From assembly GCA_030595925.1 (NCBI GenBank), contig JAUVLC010000120.1:1-7202 (forward strand): a stretch of 7,202 nt of DNA, given 5' to 3'. Source of the DNA: Clostridia bacterium (GTDB lineage Bacteria > CBDUZB01 > JAGLHV01). A program made the translations under genes and the position numbers. Shown piece after piece: positions 1,471-7,202 of the stretch. A model generated the notes under the pieces. The model saw only the letters and a program-made list of their open reading frames with translations. It was not told the DNA's origin and did not search any database. Each line of letters starts with the position of its first letter. Within the stretch, counting starts at the first letter, position 1.

Positions 1471-1947
1471 ATGAAACATTCGTTAAAGACAGGACTCAGT
1501 TTTGGTTTGTCATCAGGGGTAATTACTACTCTGGGATTAATTATAGGACTACATGCCAGTACAAATTCGAGGTCTGTTATTGTGGGAGCGATTATTATAA
1601 TGGCTATATCGGATGCCTTTTCAGATGCTATGGGCATTCATTTTTCGGAAGAATCGGAAAATAAACATTGTAAGAGAGAAATTTGGGAATCAACCGGTGC
1701 TACTTTTTTATGCAAATTTATTTTTGCAATGTCTTTTCTTATTCCTGTTTTATTTTTGAATCTTTTTTCGGCTATTGTGGTAAGTATAATGTGGGGAGTA
1801 TTTTTACTCACCATTTTTAGTTTATATTTGGCCAAAGAGCAGAAAGTGAGTCCTAAAGAAGTAATTTTAGAACATTTGGTAATTATTTTGGTTGTAATAA
1901 CTTTAACCCATAACGTTGGTCTTTGGATGGGGCGATTCTTTAAATAG
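1471..1947 (+). CDS. Small VIT1/CCC1-like membrane protein (possible Fe/Mn transporter)
   Basis: The 158-residue protein is very hydrophobic, with about five predicted membrane segments (roughly 8-28, 35-56, 76-96, 98-120 and 131-152). The N-terminal GLSFGLSSGVITTLGLIIGL, followed by a segment containing SDAFSDAMGIHFSEESE (47-63), resembles the first two helices of VIT1/CCC1-type vacuolar iron transporters (glycine-rich GL..G..TTLG, then S.A.G...SE.SE). Those proteins export Fe2+ or Mn2+ from the cytosol. The link between helices 2 and 3 is only about 20 residues but rich in E, H and C (H57, E60, E61, E63, H66, C67, E70, E73), so the long metal-binding domain of plant VIT1 is absent. The start is ATG 1471 with GGAG at 1456-1459. 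It is the first gene of a tight cluster; the next start codon comes 10 nt after its stop. Transport activity is inferred from family resemblance only. Confidence 0.7.
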   Translation: MKHSLKTGLSFGLSSGVITTLGLIIGLHASTNSRSVIVGAIIIMAISDAFSDAMGIHFSEESENKHCKREIWESTGATFLCKFIFAMSFLIPVLFLNLFSAIVVSIMWGVFLLTIFSLYLAKEQKVSPKEVILEHLVIILVVITLTHNVGLWMGRFFK

Positions 1948-1957: not shown

Positions 1958-3019
1958 ATGAAAATAATGCATACAGCTGATTTACATTTAAGAAATCATA
2001 AAGATGAACGATGGAGAACCCTGGAAACGTTAGTTGCTGTTGGAAAAAAACTCAAAATAGCGATTTTGGTAATTAGCGGGGATCTTTTTGATAAAAACAT
2101 TGATGCGGAAAATTTGCGGCCGCAAATAAGAAGTATTTTTTCCAACACTGGGTTTAAAATAGTCTTGATTTGTGGAAACCATGATCAGTTTTCATACAAA
2201 AGAGGAATGTTTTTTGGCGAAGATGTTATTGTCTTATACGATTTAATGCATCCTTTTCAATATCAGGATGTTAAAATATGGGGAATGCCTTATGCACAAA
2301 TAGAAAAAGAGGAAATTATAGATAAAATACATTCTTTAAGTAAAGTATTAAATCCCAAGGAAAAAAATATTTTACTTTATCATGGTGAATTACTGGATAC
2401 CTTTTTTTCCAGAAGGGATTTTGGAGATGAAGGAGAGGAACGCTATATGCCGGTGAAGCTTTCTTATTTTAAAGATTTAAAAATTGATTATATCCTTGCA
2501 GGCCATTTTCATACGAAGTTCGAAGTAAGGAGGTTAAAAAATCAAGGATATTTTGTTTATCCGGGGTCGCCCATTGCAATAACCAGAAAAGAAACAGGAA
2601 TAAGAAAAGTTAATGTTTTTGAACTTGGGAAACCTCCTCAGGAGTATCTTTTAGACACGGTTCATTTTGAAGAAATAGTTATAGAATTTGATCCTTTTAC
2701 GGATAAAAGGCCGTTAGAAATTGTAGAAAAATATTTTAATAATTTTCACACTCATGCCAGGGTTATTTTGACAATTAAAGGATTTGTTAATGGAGAATCA
2801 ATAGGAATGAGTGAAGTGGAACTAAAAAGGCTAATTGATAAAATAGTTGCCGACAGGTGTAATGAGATTTATTACGAGTTTAGAGATGTTCGGGTTATTT
2901 TTGAGGATGAATTATTTAAGACTTTTATTGGAAAACTTAAAAAAAGTAATTATTCGGAAAAAAAGAAAAAACAAATATATAATATAGTAATTAAAGCAAT
3001 AATGGAAGCATATTTATGA
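1958..3019 (+). CDS. Mre11/SbcD-like metallophosphoesterase (YhaO-type nuclease)
   Basis: The 353-residue protein has all calcineurin-like phosphoesterase motifs of the Mre11/SbcD nucleases, in order: HTADLHL (D8, H10), SGDLFD (D42, D45), CGNHD (N74, H75, D76), YHGELLD (H142) and AGHFHTKF (H183, H185), then YPGSP typical of the family. These residues bind two metal ions, usually Mn2+, for DNA end or hairpin cleavage. Beyond about residue 230 there is a beta-rich accessory region and a lysine-rich C-terminal helix that could bind the ATPase partner, as in Mre11. It is close to the usual SbcD/YhaO length. ATG 1958 begins directly at MKIMHTADLHL, the family norm. The stop overlaps the next start as ATGA (3016-3019), indicating translational coupling with the Rad50-like ATPase, so the two probably form one complex. 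YhaO is the closest analogue because of the partner's architecture. Confidence 0.92.
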   Translation: MKIMHTADLHLRNHKDERWRTLETLVAVGKKLKIAILVISGDLFDKNIDAENLRPQIRSIFSNTGFKIVLICGNHDQFSYKRGMFFGEDVIVLYDLMHPFQYQDVKIWGMPYAQIEKEEIIDKIHSLSKVLNPKEKNILLYHGELLDTFFSRRDFGDEGEERYMPVKLSYFKDLKIDYILAGHFHTKFEVRRLKNQGYFVYPGSPIAITRKETGIRKVNVFELGKPPQEYLLDTVHFEEIVIEFDPFTDKRPLEIVEKYFNNFHTHARVILTIKGFVNGESIGMSEVELKRLIDKIVADRCNEIYYEFRDVRVIFEDELFKTFIGKLKKSNYSEKKKKQIYNIVIKAIMEAYL

Positions 3020-5331
3020 AGATAAAAGAATTTTCAATAATCCGATATGGAATTTTATCTGATTGCGGAAAAATTAAATTAAGTAATTTCAATCTATTTT
3101 TTGGCAGGAATGAAAAGGGAAAAAGTCTTACTATTGATGCCCTGGTGAAGTTATTGCTCAAAAAGAATGTTAGAGATTTTGAAGCAATAGAACGGGTAGA
3201 GGAAAATCCGGAAGGATATGTAATTGTTGAAGACGATAGAAGAGAGGAAATTAAATTACCGGAAAAAGGAACCCTGTTAAAATTTACTGGATTAGTTTCG
3301 TCAGAGTGCCGCAATGTTTTTATTATCAGAAATAGTGATTTATCAATTTCTGCTGAATCCGAGTTTTACACAAATGTGACTGATCGTCTTACGGGGTTAA
3401 AAACAGAAGAAATTACGAAAATAAAAGAAATATTAAAAAATTTAGGGAAGGTTACTACCAGTGGGGTATTTCGTGATATTAAAGATGAGAAAATAAAAAC
3501 AAAAATAGAAAAAGCAAAAGACTTAATTGAAAAAGTTACAGATTTAACTAAAAAAATTAAAGAAGAAAAATTAAATGAGCTTGAGGAAGAACATACTCGA
3601 TGTCGGGAAGAAGCAGATAGCAATGTGGAGCAACGTCAGGCCTTTGAAGATGCGAGAAAGAGAGAAAAGTTTGAAAAAGGGAAACAGGCTTTAATTATCT
3701 TAACTACAGGCTTGAAGGAACTAAATGATTTGGAATTGTTTAATGAAGAAGATGAAAAATTTTGGGAGAATAATGAAATAAGTATTAAATTTCATAAGGA
3801 AGAAAGAGAAAGAGCATTTATTGAACTTACGAATAAAGAAAAAGAGTTAAGAGAATTAAAAAAAGAATTAATAGATAGAGAACGAAGTTTCTTCATTTTA
3901 CAGGAAAGAAAGAAAATAGTGGAAAATGAAATTAAACCGGATATACATAATTATGAAATGAAAAGCAGAGAATTGGTTTTAAAAAAATCACAAAACAATT
4001 TTTGTACTTATGCCCTGATAGCGACAGTGATATTTACCGGAATAAGTTTGTTGGGGATTATTGTAAAAACCGGAGTATTATTTTACGGGTTGGCAATAGT
4101 TTTTTCTATACTTACTGTGCTTTTTGGGGGATTAAAATTTCTCTTTGTTAAGGAAAAAGCAACCCTTGCGGAAATGTTTGAAAAAATAAGGCTGGCAAGT
4201 TTGAAATTTAAATTAGATGCGGATGATGTAAAAAAAATTATTAATAATATTCAGCAATCGGAGGAAGATTTTTTTAGAAAGCAGGAAGATTTTAAAAAGA
4301 TAAAATTAGAAAAAGAAGGACTGGAAAACAGGATTAAGGAGATAAAAGAGGAGCAGATTGTTGAAGTAGAAGAAAAAGTTAAAAATTGCAATAAAAAGAT
4401 TGAGGGAGTGAAAATAAAATCAGGGGAAAAGATGTTTCAAAAATATGCTGAAAGGTTTAAACTAAAACTAAAGCAAATTTCCCTGGTGGGAGAACAAAAA
4501 AGTGTTTTAGAAAATCTTTTTGGGGTAAAAGAAAAAAATATAGGGGATTTAGAAAAAGAAATAGATTATTGGAATGGAGAAATTTCAAATCTGGAAAAAT
4601 ATAAAGATAGGGCTAAAGATATAGAATATAATGAAAATACTGTTTCCAAATTGAAAGAAGAAAGAAATTTATGTGAGGAAAAAATAGTCAAGTTGGAGGG
4701 GAAGTTAGTACATTTTCAAAAAAGGTTAGAAGAAATAGAAAGGGAAGTAAATAAAGTTTTTCAATTAGAGTCGGATTATTTGTTTTGTAAAACATCAGTG
4801 GATTTAGAGGCCGTAGAAAACAAATTACAGGAGTTTGTCGAAGAAAAAGAAGAGAAAAAGGATACTGTTATAAAAAGTATTGAAATTTTTGAAGAAATTG
4901 AAATGGAGGAAAGAGAAAAGGTTTCTTACCTTTTTGGGAAGAAGAGCGATATTTCCAAGTTTTTTAATCGGATAACAAATGGCCGTTATGAAGAGGTAGT
5001 TTTTAATCTGGACACAGGAAAAATAAAGGTTAAGCGTAAAGATGGAGTTTTTTTAGCTCCGGAGAAATTATCCGGGGGTGCCTATGACCAGTTATATTTT
5101 TCTATTAGGCTTGTTTTGGGAGAAAAACTTCTAAAAGGGAATAAAGGGTTTTTTATTATGGATGACCCTTTTATAAAGGCGGATAGTAACAGATTAAAAA
5201 TACAATTGGAGATGTTGAAGGAAATTTCTAAGTGGGGATGGCAATGTCTGTATTTTACTGCAAAAGAGGAAGTCAGGGATTTTTTTAAAAAAGATATTCA
5301 CTCCGGGTTTATAAATTATTTTGAAGTGTGA
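3016..5331 (+). CDS. Rad50/SbcC-like coiled-coil ATPase with central transmembrane hairpin (YhaN-type)
   Basis: The 771-residue SMC-like ATPase is split in two halves. The N-terminal lobe has Walker A FGRNEKGKS (29-37). A Glu/Lys-rich coiled coil follows (about 160-325). Two hydrophobic segments (about 330-350 and 353-378) form a likely transmembrane hairpin. A second coiled coil (about 381-640) returns to the C-terminal lobe, with ABC signature LSGGAYDQ (685-692) and Walker B FFIMDDPF (712-719). Walker A to hairpin and hairpin to signature are about 293 and 307 residues, so the hairpin sits at the coiled-coil apex. No CxxC zinc hook is present. Walker B ends in Asp-Asp rather than the usual Asp-Glu. 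Bacillus YhaN has the same plan (ATPase lobes, coiled coil, membrane segments) but is longer. The 4-bp overlap with the Mre11-like gene indicates a stoichiometric complex that would be anchored in the membrane. DNA repair is the family expectation; the actual role is unknown. Confidence 0.9.
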   Translation: MKIKEFSIIRYGILSDCGKIKLSNFNLFFGRNEKGKSLTIDALVKLLLKKNVRDFEAIERVEENPEGYVIVEDDRREEIKLPEKGTLLKFTGLVSSECRNVFIIRNSDLSISAESEFYTNVTDRLTGLKTEEITKIKEILKNLGKVTTSGVFRDIKDEKIKTKIEKAKDLIEKVTDLTKKIKEEKLNELEEEHTRCREEADSNVEQRQAFEDARKREKFEKGKQALIILTTGLKELNDLELFNEEDEKFWENNEISIKFHKEERERAFIELTNKEKELRELKKELIDRERSFFILQERKKIVENEIKPDIHNYEMKSRELVLKKSQNNFCTYALIATVIFTGISLLGIIVKTGVLFYGLAIVFSILTVLFGGLKFLFVKEKATLAEMFEKIRLASLKFKLDADDVKKIINNIQQSEEDFFRKQEDFKKIKLEKEGLENRIKEIKEEQIVEVEEKVKNCNKKIEGVKIKSGEKMFQKYAERFKLKLKQISLVGEQKSVLENLFGVKEKNIGDLEKEIDYWNGEISNLEKYKDRAKDIEYNENTVSKLKEERNLCEEKIVKLEGKLVHFQKRLEEIEREVNKVFQLESDYLFCKTSVDLEAVENKLQEFVEEKEEKKDTVIKSIEIFEEIEMEEREKVSYLFGKKSDISKFFNRITNGRYEEVVFNLDTGKIKVKRKDGVFLAPEKLSGGAYDQLYFSIRLVLGEKLLKGNKGFFIMDDPFIKADSNRLKIQLEMLKEISKWGWQCLYFTAKEEVRDFFKKDIHSGFINYFEV

Positions 5332-5384: not shown

Positions 5385-6581
5385 ATGGAAAGTAAAGAAA
5401 TTTTTTCGGAAATAGTCTTAAATAATGCAAATCGGGAAGGAAAAATTTTAGCTAAGTATGCCTGTAAGAGCAAAAACGGAATAAGAAAATTTCCTGAAAA
5501 AGAAAAAATTATCGAGAGAATAAATATCCGGCCGATTTTTTTCCATGATACGGATAAGATTATTCATTCCCGTGCTTATTCCAGATATATTGATAAGACC
5601 CAGGTTTTTTACCTGTTTGAAAATGACCACATTACTCACCGGGTTCTGCATGTACAATTTGTTTCTAAGATTGGCCGGGTAATAGGAAGATGTTTAAGAT
5701 TAAACGAGGATTTAATCGAAGCTATTTCTCTGGGACATGATTTAGGGCATGTACCATACGGTCATGATGGGGAGAAGGTTTTAAATGAGATATGTAATAA
5801 AGAAAAAATAGGGTGTTTTGTGCATAATGCCCAGAGCGTAAAATTTTTAATGGAATTAGAGCAACATGGAAAAGGATTGAATTTATCCTTGCAGGTCTTA
5901 GATGGTATTTTAGCGCATAACGGTGAAATGTTAAGCAGGGAATATAGTCCGGATTATGCAAAGGATTGGAAAAAATTTGAAGAGGAATATTACCATTGCT
6001 TCCGTGAAAAAAAATACAGTACGAAAATTTTTCCGATGACGATAGAAGGCTGCGTAGTTAGAATTTCCGATGTTATTGCTTATATTGGAAGAGATATAGA
6101 AGATGCCATTACTTTAAAAGTAATAAAAAGAAAAGATATTCCCGAAGGAATTATACGAATTATCGGTAATACTAATGACAAAATAATAAATACCCTGGTT
6201 ATGGATTTAATCAAAAATAGTTACAATAAAGATTATATAACCTTTAGCAATGATATATTCAGTGCTTTAAGGGATTTAAAGGAGTTTAATAGAGCCAATA
6301 TTTATTCCAATGACCAGATTAAAAAGGAAACACCTAAAATTGAGAATATGTTTAGACAATTATTTGAAAAATTTCTGGACGACTTACAAAATAAAAATAA
6401 TGAATCTCCTTTTTATCGCCATTATTTGAAAGATATTGATGATAATTATCGCAGGAACACGGATAAAAAACGCATAATAATTGATTTTATTGCCGGAATG
6501 ACCGATGATTTTTTTAACAACCAATTCAAAGAAATATTTGTCCCTAAAAGCTACGGATATTTTCTAAAGCCGAAAAAATAA
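5385..6581 (+). CDS. dgt: dGTPase-like HD-domain deoxynucleoside triphosphate triphosphohydrolase
   Basis: The 398-residue protein matches the Dgt/dNTPase family. It has IIHSRAYSRYIDKTQVF (59-75), THRVLHVQFV (84-93, metal ligand H89), HDLGHVPYGHDGE (118-130, the HD pair H118/D119 and H122, H127), FVHNAQS (145-151), a GILAHNGE segment (H178) and ISDVIAY (D229, final metal ligand). Such enzymes remove tripolyphosphate from dGTP or other dNTPs, giving the deoxynucleoside, and so lower the dNTP pool; some protect bacteria from phage. Key residues are intact and the length is normal. ATG 5385 has a good AGAGGGA site (5374-5380). It starts 53 bp after the Rad50-like gene, on the same strand and with no convincing terminator between, so co-transcription is likely. 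Substrate preference cannot be read from sequence. Bacillus YhaN/YhaO also sits beside an HD-domain protein (YhaM), but that is an exoribonuclease of a different HD family. Confidence 0.92.
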   Translation: MESKEIFSEIVLNNANREGKILAKYACKSKNGIRKFPEKEKIIERINIRPIFFHDTDKIIHSRAYSRYIDKTQVFYLFENDHITHRVLHVQFVSKIGRVIGRCLRLNEDLIEAISLGHDLGHVPYGHDGEKVLNEICNKEKIGCFVHNAQSVKFLMELEQHGKGLNLSLQVLDGILAHNGEMLSREYSPDYAKDWKKFEEEYYHCFREKKYSTKIFPMTIEGCVVRISDVIAYIGRDIEDAITLKVIKRKDIPEGIIRIIGNTNDKIINTLVMDLIKNSYNKDYITFSNDIFSALRDLKEFNRANIYSNDQIKKETPKIENMFRQLFEKFLDDLQNKNNESPFYRHYLKDIDDNYRRNTDKKRIIIDFIAGMTDDFFNNQFKEIFVPKSYGYFLKPKK

Positions 6582-6961: not shown

Positions 6962-7202
6962 ATGAATAAAAACAAAAAACTTACAAAAGAAGATATTATG
7001 AAGATTTTGAAACAGAGTAAAGAAATGCTTAAAAAATATGATGTAAAAAGAATAGGTGTTTTCGGTTCCTATGTAAGAAAAGAAAATAAAAAATCAAGTG
7101 ATATTGATTTTCTTGTAGAATTTAAGATAGCTACTTTTGATAATTATATGGGACTTTGTTTGGATTTAAAGCATAAATTGCATAAAAAGGTAGATTTGGT
7201 GA
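6962..7202 (+). CDS. MNT-type minimal nucleotidyltransferase (3' end outside window)
   Basis: The first 80 residues are present. After an N-terminal helix (about 8-26) comes the polymerase-beta-fold signature VFGSYVRKE (33-41, with G35-S36) and SSDIDFLVEF (45-54), giving catalytic D47 and D49. D78 in KKVDLV (75-80) is the likely third carboxylate. All three acidic residues are kept, so it is probably active. Relatives are about 95-110 residues, so roughly 20 are missing at the window edge. MntA-type members neutralise HEPN RNase toxins by adding AMP to the toxin; a HEPN gene would be expected immediately downstream but cannot be seen. Single-gene MNT proteins also exist. It lies 52 bp after the right REP repeat. 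Confidence 0.85.
   Translation, partial: MNKNKKLTKEDIMKILKQSKEMLKKYDVKRIGVFGSYVRKENKKSSDIDFLVEFKIATFDNYMGLCLDLKHKLHKKVDLV

Follow-up and report, generated by a model that had tools for sequence, protein, structure and literature searches.

The locus described here raises the question of what occupies the apex of a Rad50-like coiled-coil ATPase when the zinc hook is missing, and where in the cell such a protein and its Mre11-like partner would then act. Mre11-Rad50 is regarded as a soluble, zinc-hooked complex. The window, the whole stretch of 7,202 nucleotides that was analysed, encodes a pair of this general type for which a preliminary description had proposed that a membrane hairpin replaces the hook.

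The ATPase and Its Nuclease Partner

The ATPase gene (positions 3016..5331, plus strand) encodes a YhaN-type Rad50-like protein of 771 aa, an assignment based on the open reading frame, a match to AAA_27, fold matches to Rad50 and a profile HMM of YhaN-type C lobes. Both ends of the protein are ABC-ATPase lobes and the middle is helical. The Pfam model of the AAA_27 N-terminal P-loop domain scored 22.8 bits (cut-off 22), the match covering only the first 50 of its 206 positions. The Walker A motif GRNEKGKS (residues 30-37; 3103..3126, plus strand) was evident in the sequence and in the alignment of homologues, in which G30, N32, E33, G35 and K36 are invariant. The ABC signature LSGGAYDQLY (residues 685-694; 5068..5097, plus strand) includes the DQLY typical of YhaN-type proteins. 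The Walker B motif FFIMDD (residues 712-717; 5149..5166, plus strand), conserved in the homologue alignment, ends with Asp717 in the position of the catalytic Glu of Rad50. This Asp-Asp in place of Asp-Glu is conserved in the subfamily and recurs in several YhaN-type proteins outside it, among them that of Listeria; replacement of the catalytic Glu by Asp may result in slow ATP hydrolysis.

The gene directly upstream (1958..3019, plus strand) encodes an Mre11/SbcD-like nuclease of 353 aa identified by the Metallophos family of Pfam, an SbcD profile and matches to SbcD/Mre11 chains. A TTG at 1916 is an unlikely start for the nuclease, and the start at 1958 is conserved in homologues. The phosphoesterase metal-ligand motifs (D8/H10, D42, N74/H75, H142 and H183/H185) are invariant in 23 partners. 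These results, together with the Rad50 fold matches described below, bear out the pairing of a Rad50-like ATPase with an Mre11-like protein in the preliminary description. The stop of the nuclease gene and the start of the ATPase gene share 4 bases (ATGA), and an Mre11-like gene directly upstream with the same overlap was found at 24/24 homologous loci, indicating a strict two-gene unit that is probably translationally coupled. A constant third partner gene was considered and rejected; the neighbours vary among the loci.

Coiled-Coil Arms and Predicted Structure

An AlphaFold2 model was obtained with a 23-sequence alignment. The ascending coiled-coil arm, residues about 160-322 (3493..3981, plus strand), was modelled as helices 160-183, 186-238 and 244-322. 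The descending arm, residues about 374-639 (4135..4932, plus strand), is interrupted, with helices at 405-469, 474-502, 512-529, 540-582 and 594-639. The main stretches of both arms show the 3.5-residue periodicity of coiled coils, with p=0.001 for the ascending arm. At the apex the model places helices 244-322, 324-350 and 354-396, the last two joined by a three-residue turn, with a pLDDT of about 77-84, and the hydrophobic stretch does not lie inside a globular domain. The N-terminal ATPase lobe was poorly modelled (pLDDT about 30-47). Rad50 was the best match to the model in both Foldseek and VIA-align, with a Z of about 13 that is partly due to the long helices. Isolated Rad50 C lobes match well, with an rmsd of 2.6 over 127 residues for 1f2u. 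No solved YhaN structure was seen among the chains reached by the profiles, which were those of Rad50, SMC and other ATPases only.

A Hydrophobic Hairpin at the Apex

The apex consists of a hydrophobic helix, here termed TM1 (residues 329-350; 4000..4065, plus strand), a tiny turn (residues 351-353; 4066..4074, plus strand) that reads N/S-P-S in most homologues, and a second hydrophobic helix, TM2 (residues 354-373; 4075..4134, plus strand), followed by Lys/Arg at 374, 379 and 381. The helices were delimited by an insertion scan, the AlphaFold2 model and the alignment columns, and the turn by the model and the alignment. The limits agree within a few residues with the segments 330-350 and 353-378 reported earlier. 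A simplified insertion scale gives energies of -2.3 and -2.6 for the best 19-mers (332-350 and 355-373) and +6.4 for the third-best segment of the 771-aa protein, leaving two membrane-grade segments only. The midpoint of the hairpin lies at 0.49 of the distance from Walker A to the signature, which is the halfway position assigned to it in the preliminary description. That account had also found no CxxC anywhere in the protein, and the motif is likewise absent from all 28 homologue sequences examined, which include partial ones, with no CxxC hook at the aligned position in the protein's own clade.

The single-window hydropathy maximum was equalled in 46/2000 shuffles of the protein (about 2%). 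One protein alone is thus mildly unusual, single-sequence hydropathy was rejected as proof of the hairpin, and the proof lies in conservation among homologues. All subfamily sequences that cover the apex contain the same two segments at 0.49-0.50. Among 23 aligned proteins the 45 columns from 329 to 373 are nearly free of charge, position 328 is Lys/Arg in 22/23 and position 374 in 19/23, and the hairpin shows no 3.5-residue periodicity (p=0.96). A hairpin with almost no charge, Lys/Arg caps and heptads only outside it is, as judged from the alignment, what characterises a membrane-inserted hairpin whose two arms both lie inside the cell, and the hairpin is very probably inserted in the membrane as predicted. 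Conservation, the periodicity of the flanking arms and the modelled helix-turn-helix all support a hairpin at the coiled-coil apex in the position of the zinc hook.

The same features were weighed against a soluble dimerisation module, in which two hairpins would form a four-helix bundle replacing the zinc hook and the complex would be cytoplasmic. The hairpin occupies the very site of dimerisation in Rad50 and SMC proteins, and conservation of small residues at 342, 344 and 347 of TM1 resembles that of packed helices. The Rad50 hook and the SMC hinge are also interchangeable dimer modules (PMC6969161), which is in favour of a soluble replacement. However, a soluble bundle is expected to show the 3.5-residue amphipathic pattern that the hairpin lacks, and the segments are of membrane length, hardly charged on any face and capped by Lys/Arg, with negative insertion energies. 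Both sets of facts would be accommodated if the hairpins dimerised within the membrane, and a wholly soluble module is considered quite improbable.

Placement in the YhaN/SbcE Family

Twelve wider AAA_27/YhaN-type proteins were chosen by sequence match, independent of hydropathy; they comprise nine proteins, one with an atypical P-loop, one lacking the N-terminus and the Listeria YhaN. A mid-protein hydrophobic stretch was found in 12/12. For the nine, two separate segments can be distinguished at 0.50-0.56, and some are weaker than those of the subfamily. In five zinc-hook SbcC/Rad50 proteins examined as controls, the region near the middle contains CxxC and lacks a hydrophobic segment. Head-domain profiles were built from the YhaN-type and the zinc-hook groups. 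The C lobe scored 100.6 bits with the YhaN-type profile versus 30.4 with the zinc-hook profile, and the N lobe scored 34.1 versus 4.1 bits. Profile-profile comparison with the YhaN set gave E=5e-39, the match being confined to 202 columns of the C lobe and the arm next to it. In a tree of the heads all hairpin proteins form one group with an ultrafast bootstrap of 91, within which the present subfamily is a long separate branch (1.78 substitutions per site); several of the internal supports are modest.

These results identify the protein, on the evidence of its sequence, as belonging to a new, compact branch within the YhaN/SbcE family. The resemblance to YhaN drawn in the preliminary description was correct and proved stronger than stated, since the heads are of YhaN type and the hairpin is found family-wide. 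It follows that the hairpin is not peculiar to this protein, and the novelty is limited in that the striking apex feature belongs to the whole YhaN/SbcE family. The family results also bear on whether the protein is simply a soluble SbcC/Rad50 of the ordinary kind in which the zinc hook was lost and a hydrophobic patch arose by drift. The overall fold and the partner do match Mre11-Rad50, as such a history would predict, but a hydrophobic apex conserved in the subfamily and the wider family, and a C lobe that fits YhaN-type proteins 70 bits better than zinc-hook proteins, make drift highly implausible.

Distribution and Genomic Context

The subfamily scan covered one genome per species and returned 24 loci, all in metagenome-assembled genomes, to which further relatives from whole genomes were added. 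The loci are labelled Aerophobetes, Dehalococcoidia, Sumerlaeota, Atribacteria, Thermotogota, Caldiserica, Calditrichaceae, two archaeal bins and others, bearing in mind that phylum labels of such genomes can be wrong. In the window, a gene for a VIT1-like small membrane protein (1471-1947, plus strand) stops 10 bases short of the nuclease gene, with which it is possibly co-transcribed, and a dGTPase-type HD phosphohydrolase (5385-6581, plus strand) begins 53 bases after the pair. Both accompany the pair in the closest relative only (L025 for the dGTPase), and in L030 a relative of the VIT1-like gene occurs about 3 kb downstream of the pair. The start of a minimal nucleotidyltransferase of the MNT type (6962-7201, plus strand) is truncated by the contig end; nucleotidyltransferases of this type are a class common in toxin-antitoxin pairs.

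No zinc hook, SbcC match or second SbcD-like gene was found in the source genome, a 97% complete draft bin. The pair may thus be the only Mre11-Rad50-type complex of this genome, a suggestion for which a draft bin is no proof. The zinc-hook model of Pfam was too insensitive as a test for SbcC, missing the proteins of E. coli and B. subtilis, and TIGR00618 was therefore added. A clear full-length SbcC was present in 0/5 genomes carrying the pair, yet it is also scarce in other genomes. A correlation between presence of the pair and absence of SbcC was not concluded, since few non-carrier genomes show SbcC either.

The context was also considered in relation to a role as an anti-phage or anti-plasmid nuclease rather than in housekeeping repair, which would alter the role of the pair and not its architecture. 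Such a role would agree with a two-gene cassette dispersed over many phyla without fixed neighbours, and at three loci the pair adjoins a restriction or defence-like gene, namely HsdR (L035:658-3867), an AAA_12/MTES_1575 helicase-nuclease (L032:143-3985) or a NOV_C/Sacsin protein (L046:8442-13145). A position at the membrane would also suit incoming DNA. However, the neighbours are mostly housekeeping genes and PADLOC models match only weakly. The characterised relative SbcE/YhaN reportedly acts in repair, and yhaON is listed in the SOS regulon. The pair was not found in viral contigs, and phage and plasmid records gave weak partial matches, none of them full-length. A defence role is therefore held to be unlikely, if still an outside chance. 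A phage, plasmid or viral origin was rejected, those collections containing no full-length match.

Proposed Mechanism

The results as a whole suggest, with a probability of roughly three in four, that the pair is an Mre11-Rad50-type complex which is anchored in the cell membrane on its cytoplasmic side and would process DNA ends there. A coiled-coil arm would leave the N-terminal ATPase lobe, extending up to about 24 nm if straight, enter the membrane as helix 329-350, make a short turn on the outer side and go back as helix 354-373. The second arm would return to the C-terminal lobe, so that the ATPase is folded back on itself. The positive residues flanking the hairpin on both sides would keep both arms cytoplasmic. 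Since the turn is too small for a receptor, the hairpin is probably an anchor, and possibly also a dimer contact like the zinc hook of Rad50. ATP-driven engagement of two heads would control the Mre11-like nuclease near their base, and DNA ends would be caught and processed beside the membrane. The substrate might be broken ends of the chromosome or DNA that comes in via the envelope.

Extended to the family, exchange of the Rad50 apex for a transmembrane hairpin would define a large class of membrane-tethered Mre11-Rad50-type nucleases, a proposal that we regard as reasonably probable. In lineages like the present one it would perhaps be the sole complex of this kind, in which case the membrane would be the place where the processing of DNA ends is organised. 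The apex is accordingly suggested to be a swappable module that can be a zinc hook, a hinge or a membrane hairpin. A family with a membrane hairpin for the hook poses the question of where DNA ends are processed and why at the membrane, which is testable in B. subtilis.

Comparison with Known Systems

Transmembrane helices are annotated for YhaN in sequence databases. Neither membrane anchoring nor a hairpin replacing the zinc hook is discussed for the YhaN family in the open-licence literature searched, in which nothing relevant on membrane-bound Rad50 or SMC was found either. For YhaN of S. haemolyticus (Staphylococcus), at least two of three programs predict a membrane protein, and surface shaving yielded peptides from it (PMC7137321); the latter lends little weight, since most of the recovered proteins were cytoplasmic (PMC7137321). 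The yhaO and yhaN genes of B. pumilus are listed under LexA/SOS and are induced by peroxide. YhaN of B. subtilis is SbcE, a 'novel SMC-like protein' by its 2010 title, with a reported role in repair and competence (PMC3896406, PMC4205851). To the extent that a title can be relied on, the SMC-like naming counts against an anchored protein and the competence role fits DNA arriving at the membrane.

SMC proteins carry a hinge domain. The SMC of the same genome (L059) resembles the present ATPase as a long coiled-coil ABC ATPase, but has neither a hydrophobic apex nor a nuclease partner. The likeness to Rad50/SbcC is closer, extending to a coiled coil that folds back and carries ATPase lobes at its ends, an Mre11-type partner and the best fold matches. 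The difference is at the apex, where the zinc-hook controls have CxxC at 0.52-0.54 where measured and the canonical hook is not found here. The closest known counterpart is YhaN/SbcE of Bacilli with its partner YhaO, examined here in the Listeria copy (L077). The record of this copy, NZ_CP030101.1, stands in the plasmid collection as a Listeria plasmid and at 2.9 Mb is evidently a chromosome. At 907 aa the Listeria protein is longer than the 771 aa found here, and it shares the Mre11-like (YhaO-type) gene directly upstream, the same type of head signature, Asp-Asp at Walker B and a mid-protein hydrophobic stretch without CxxC.
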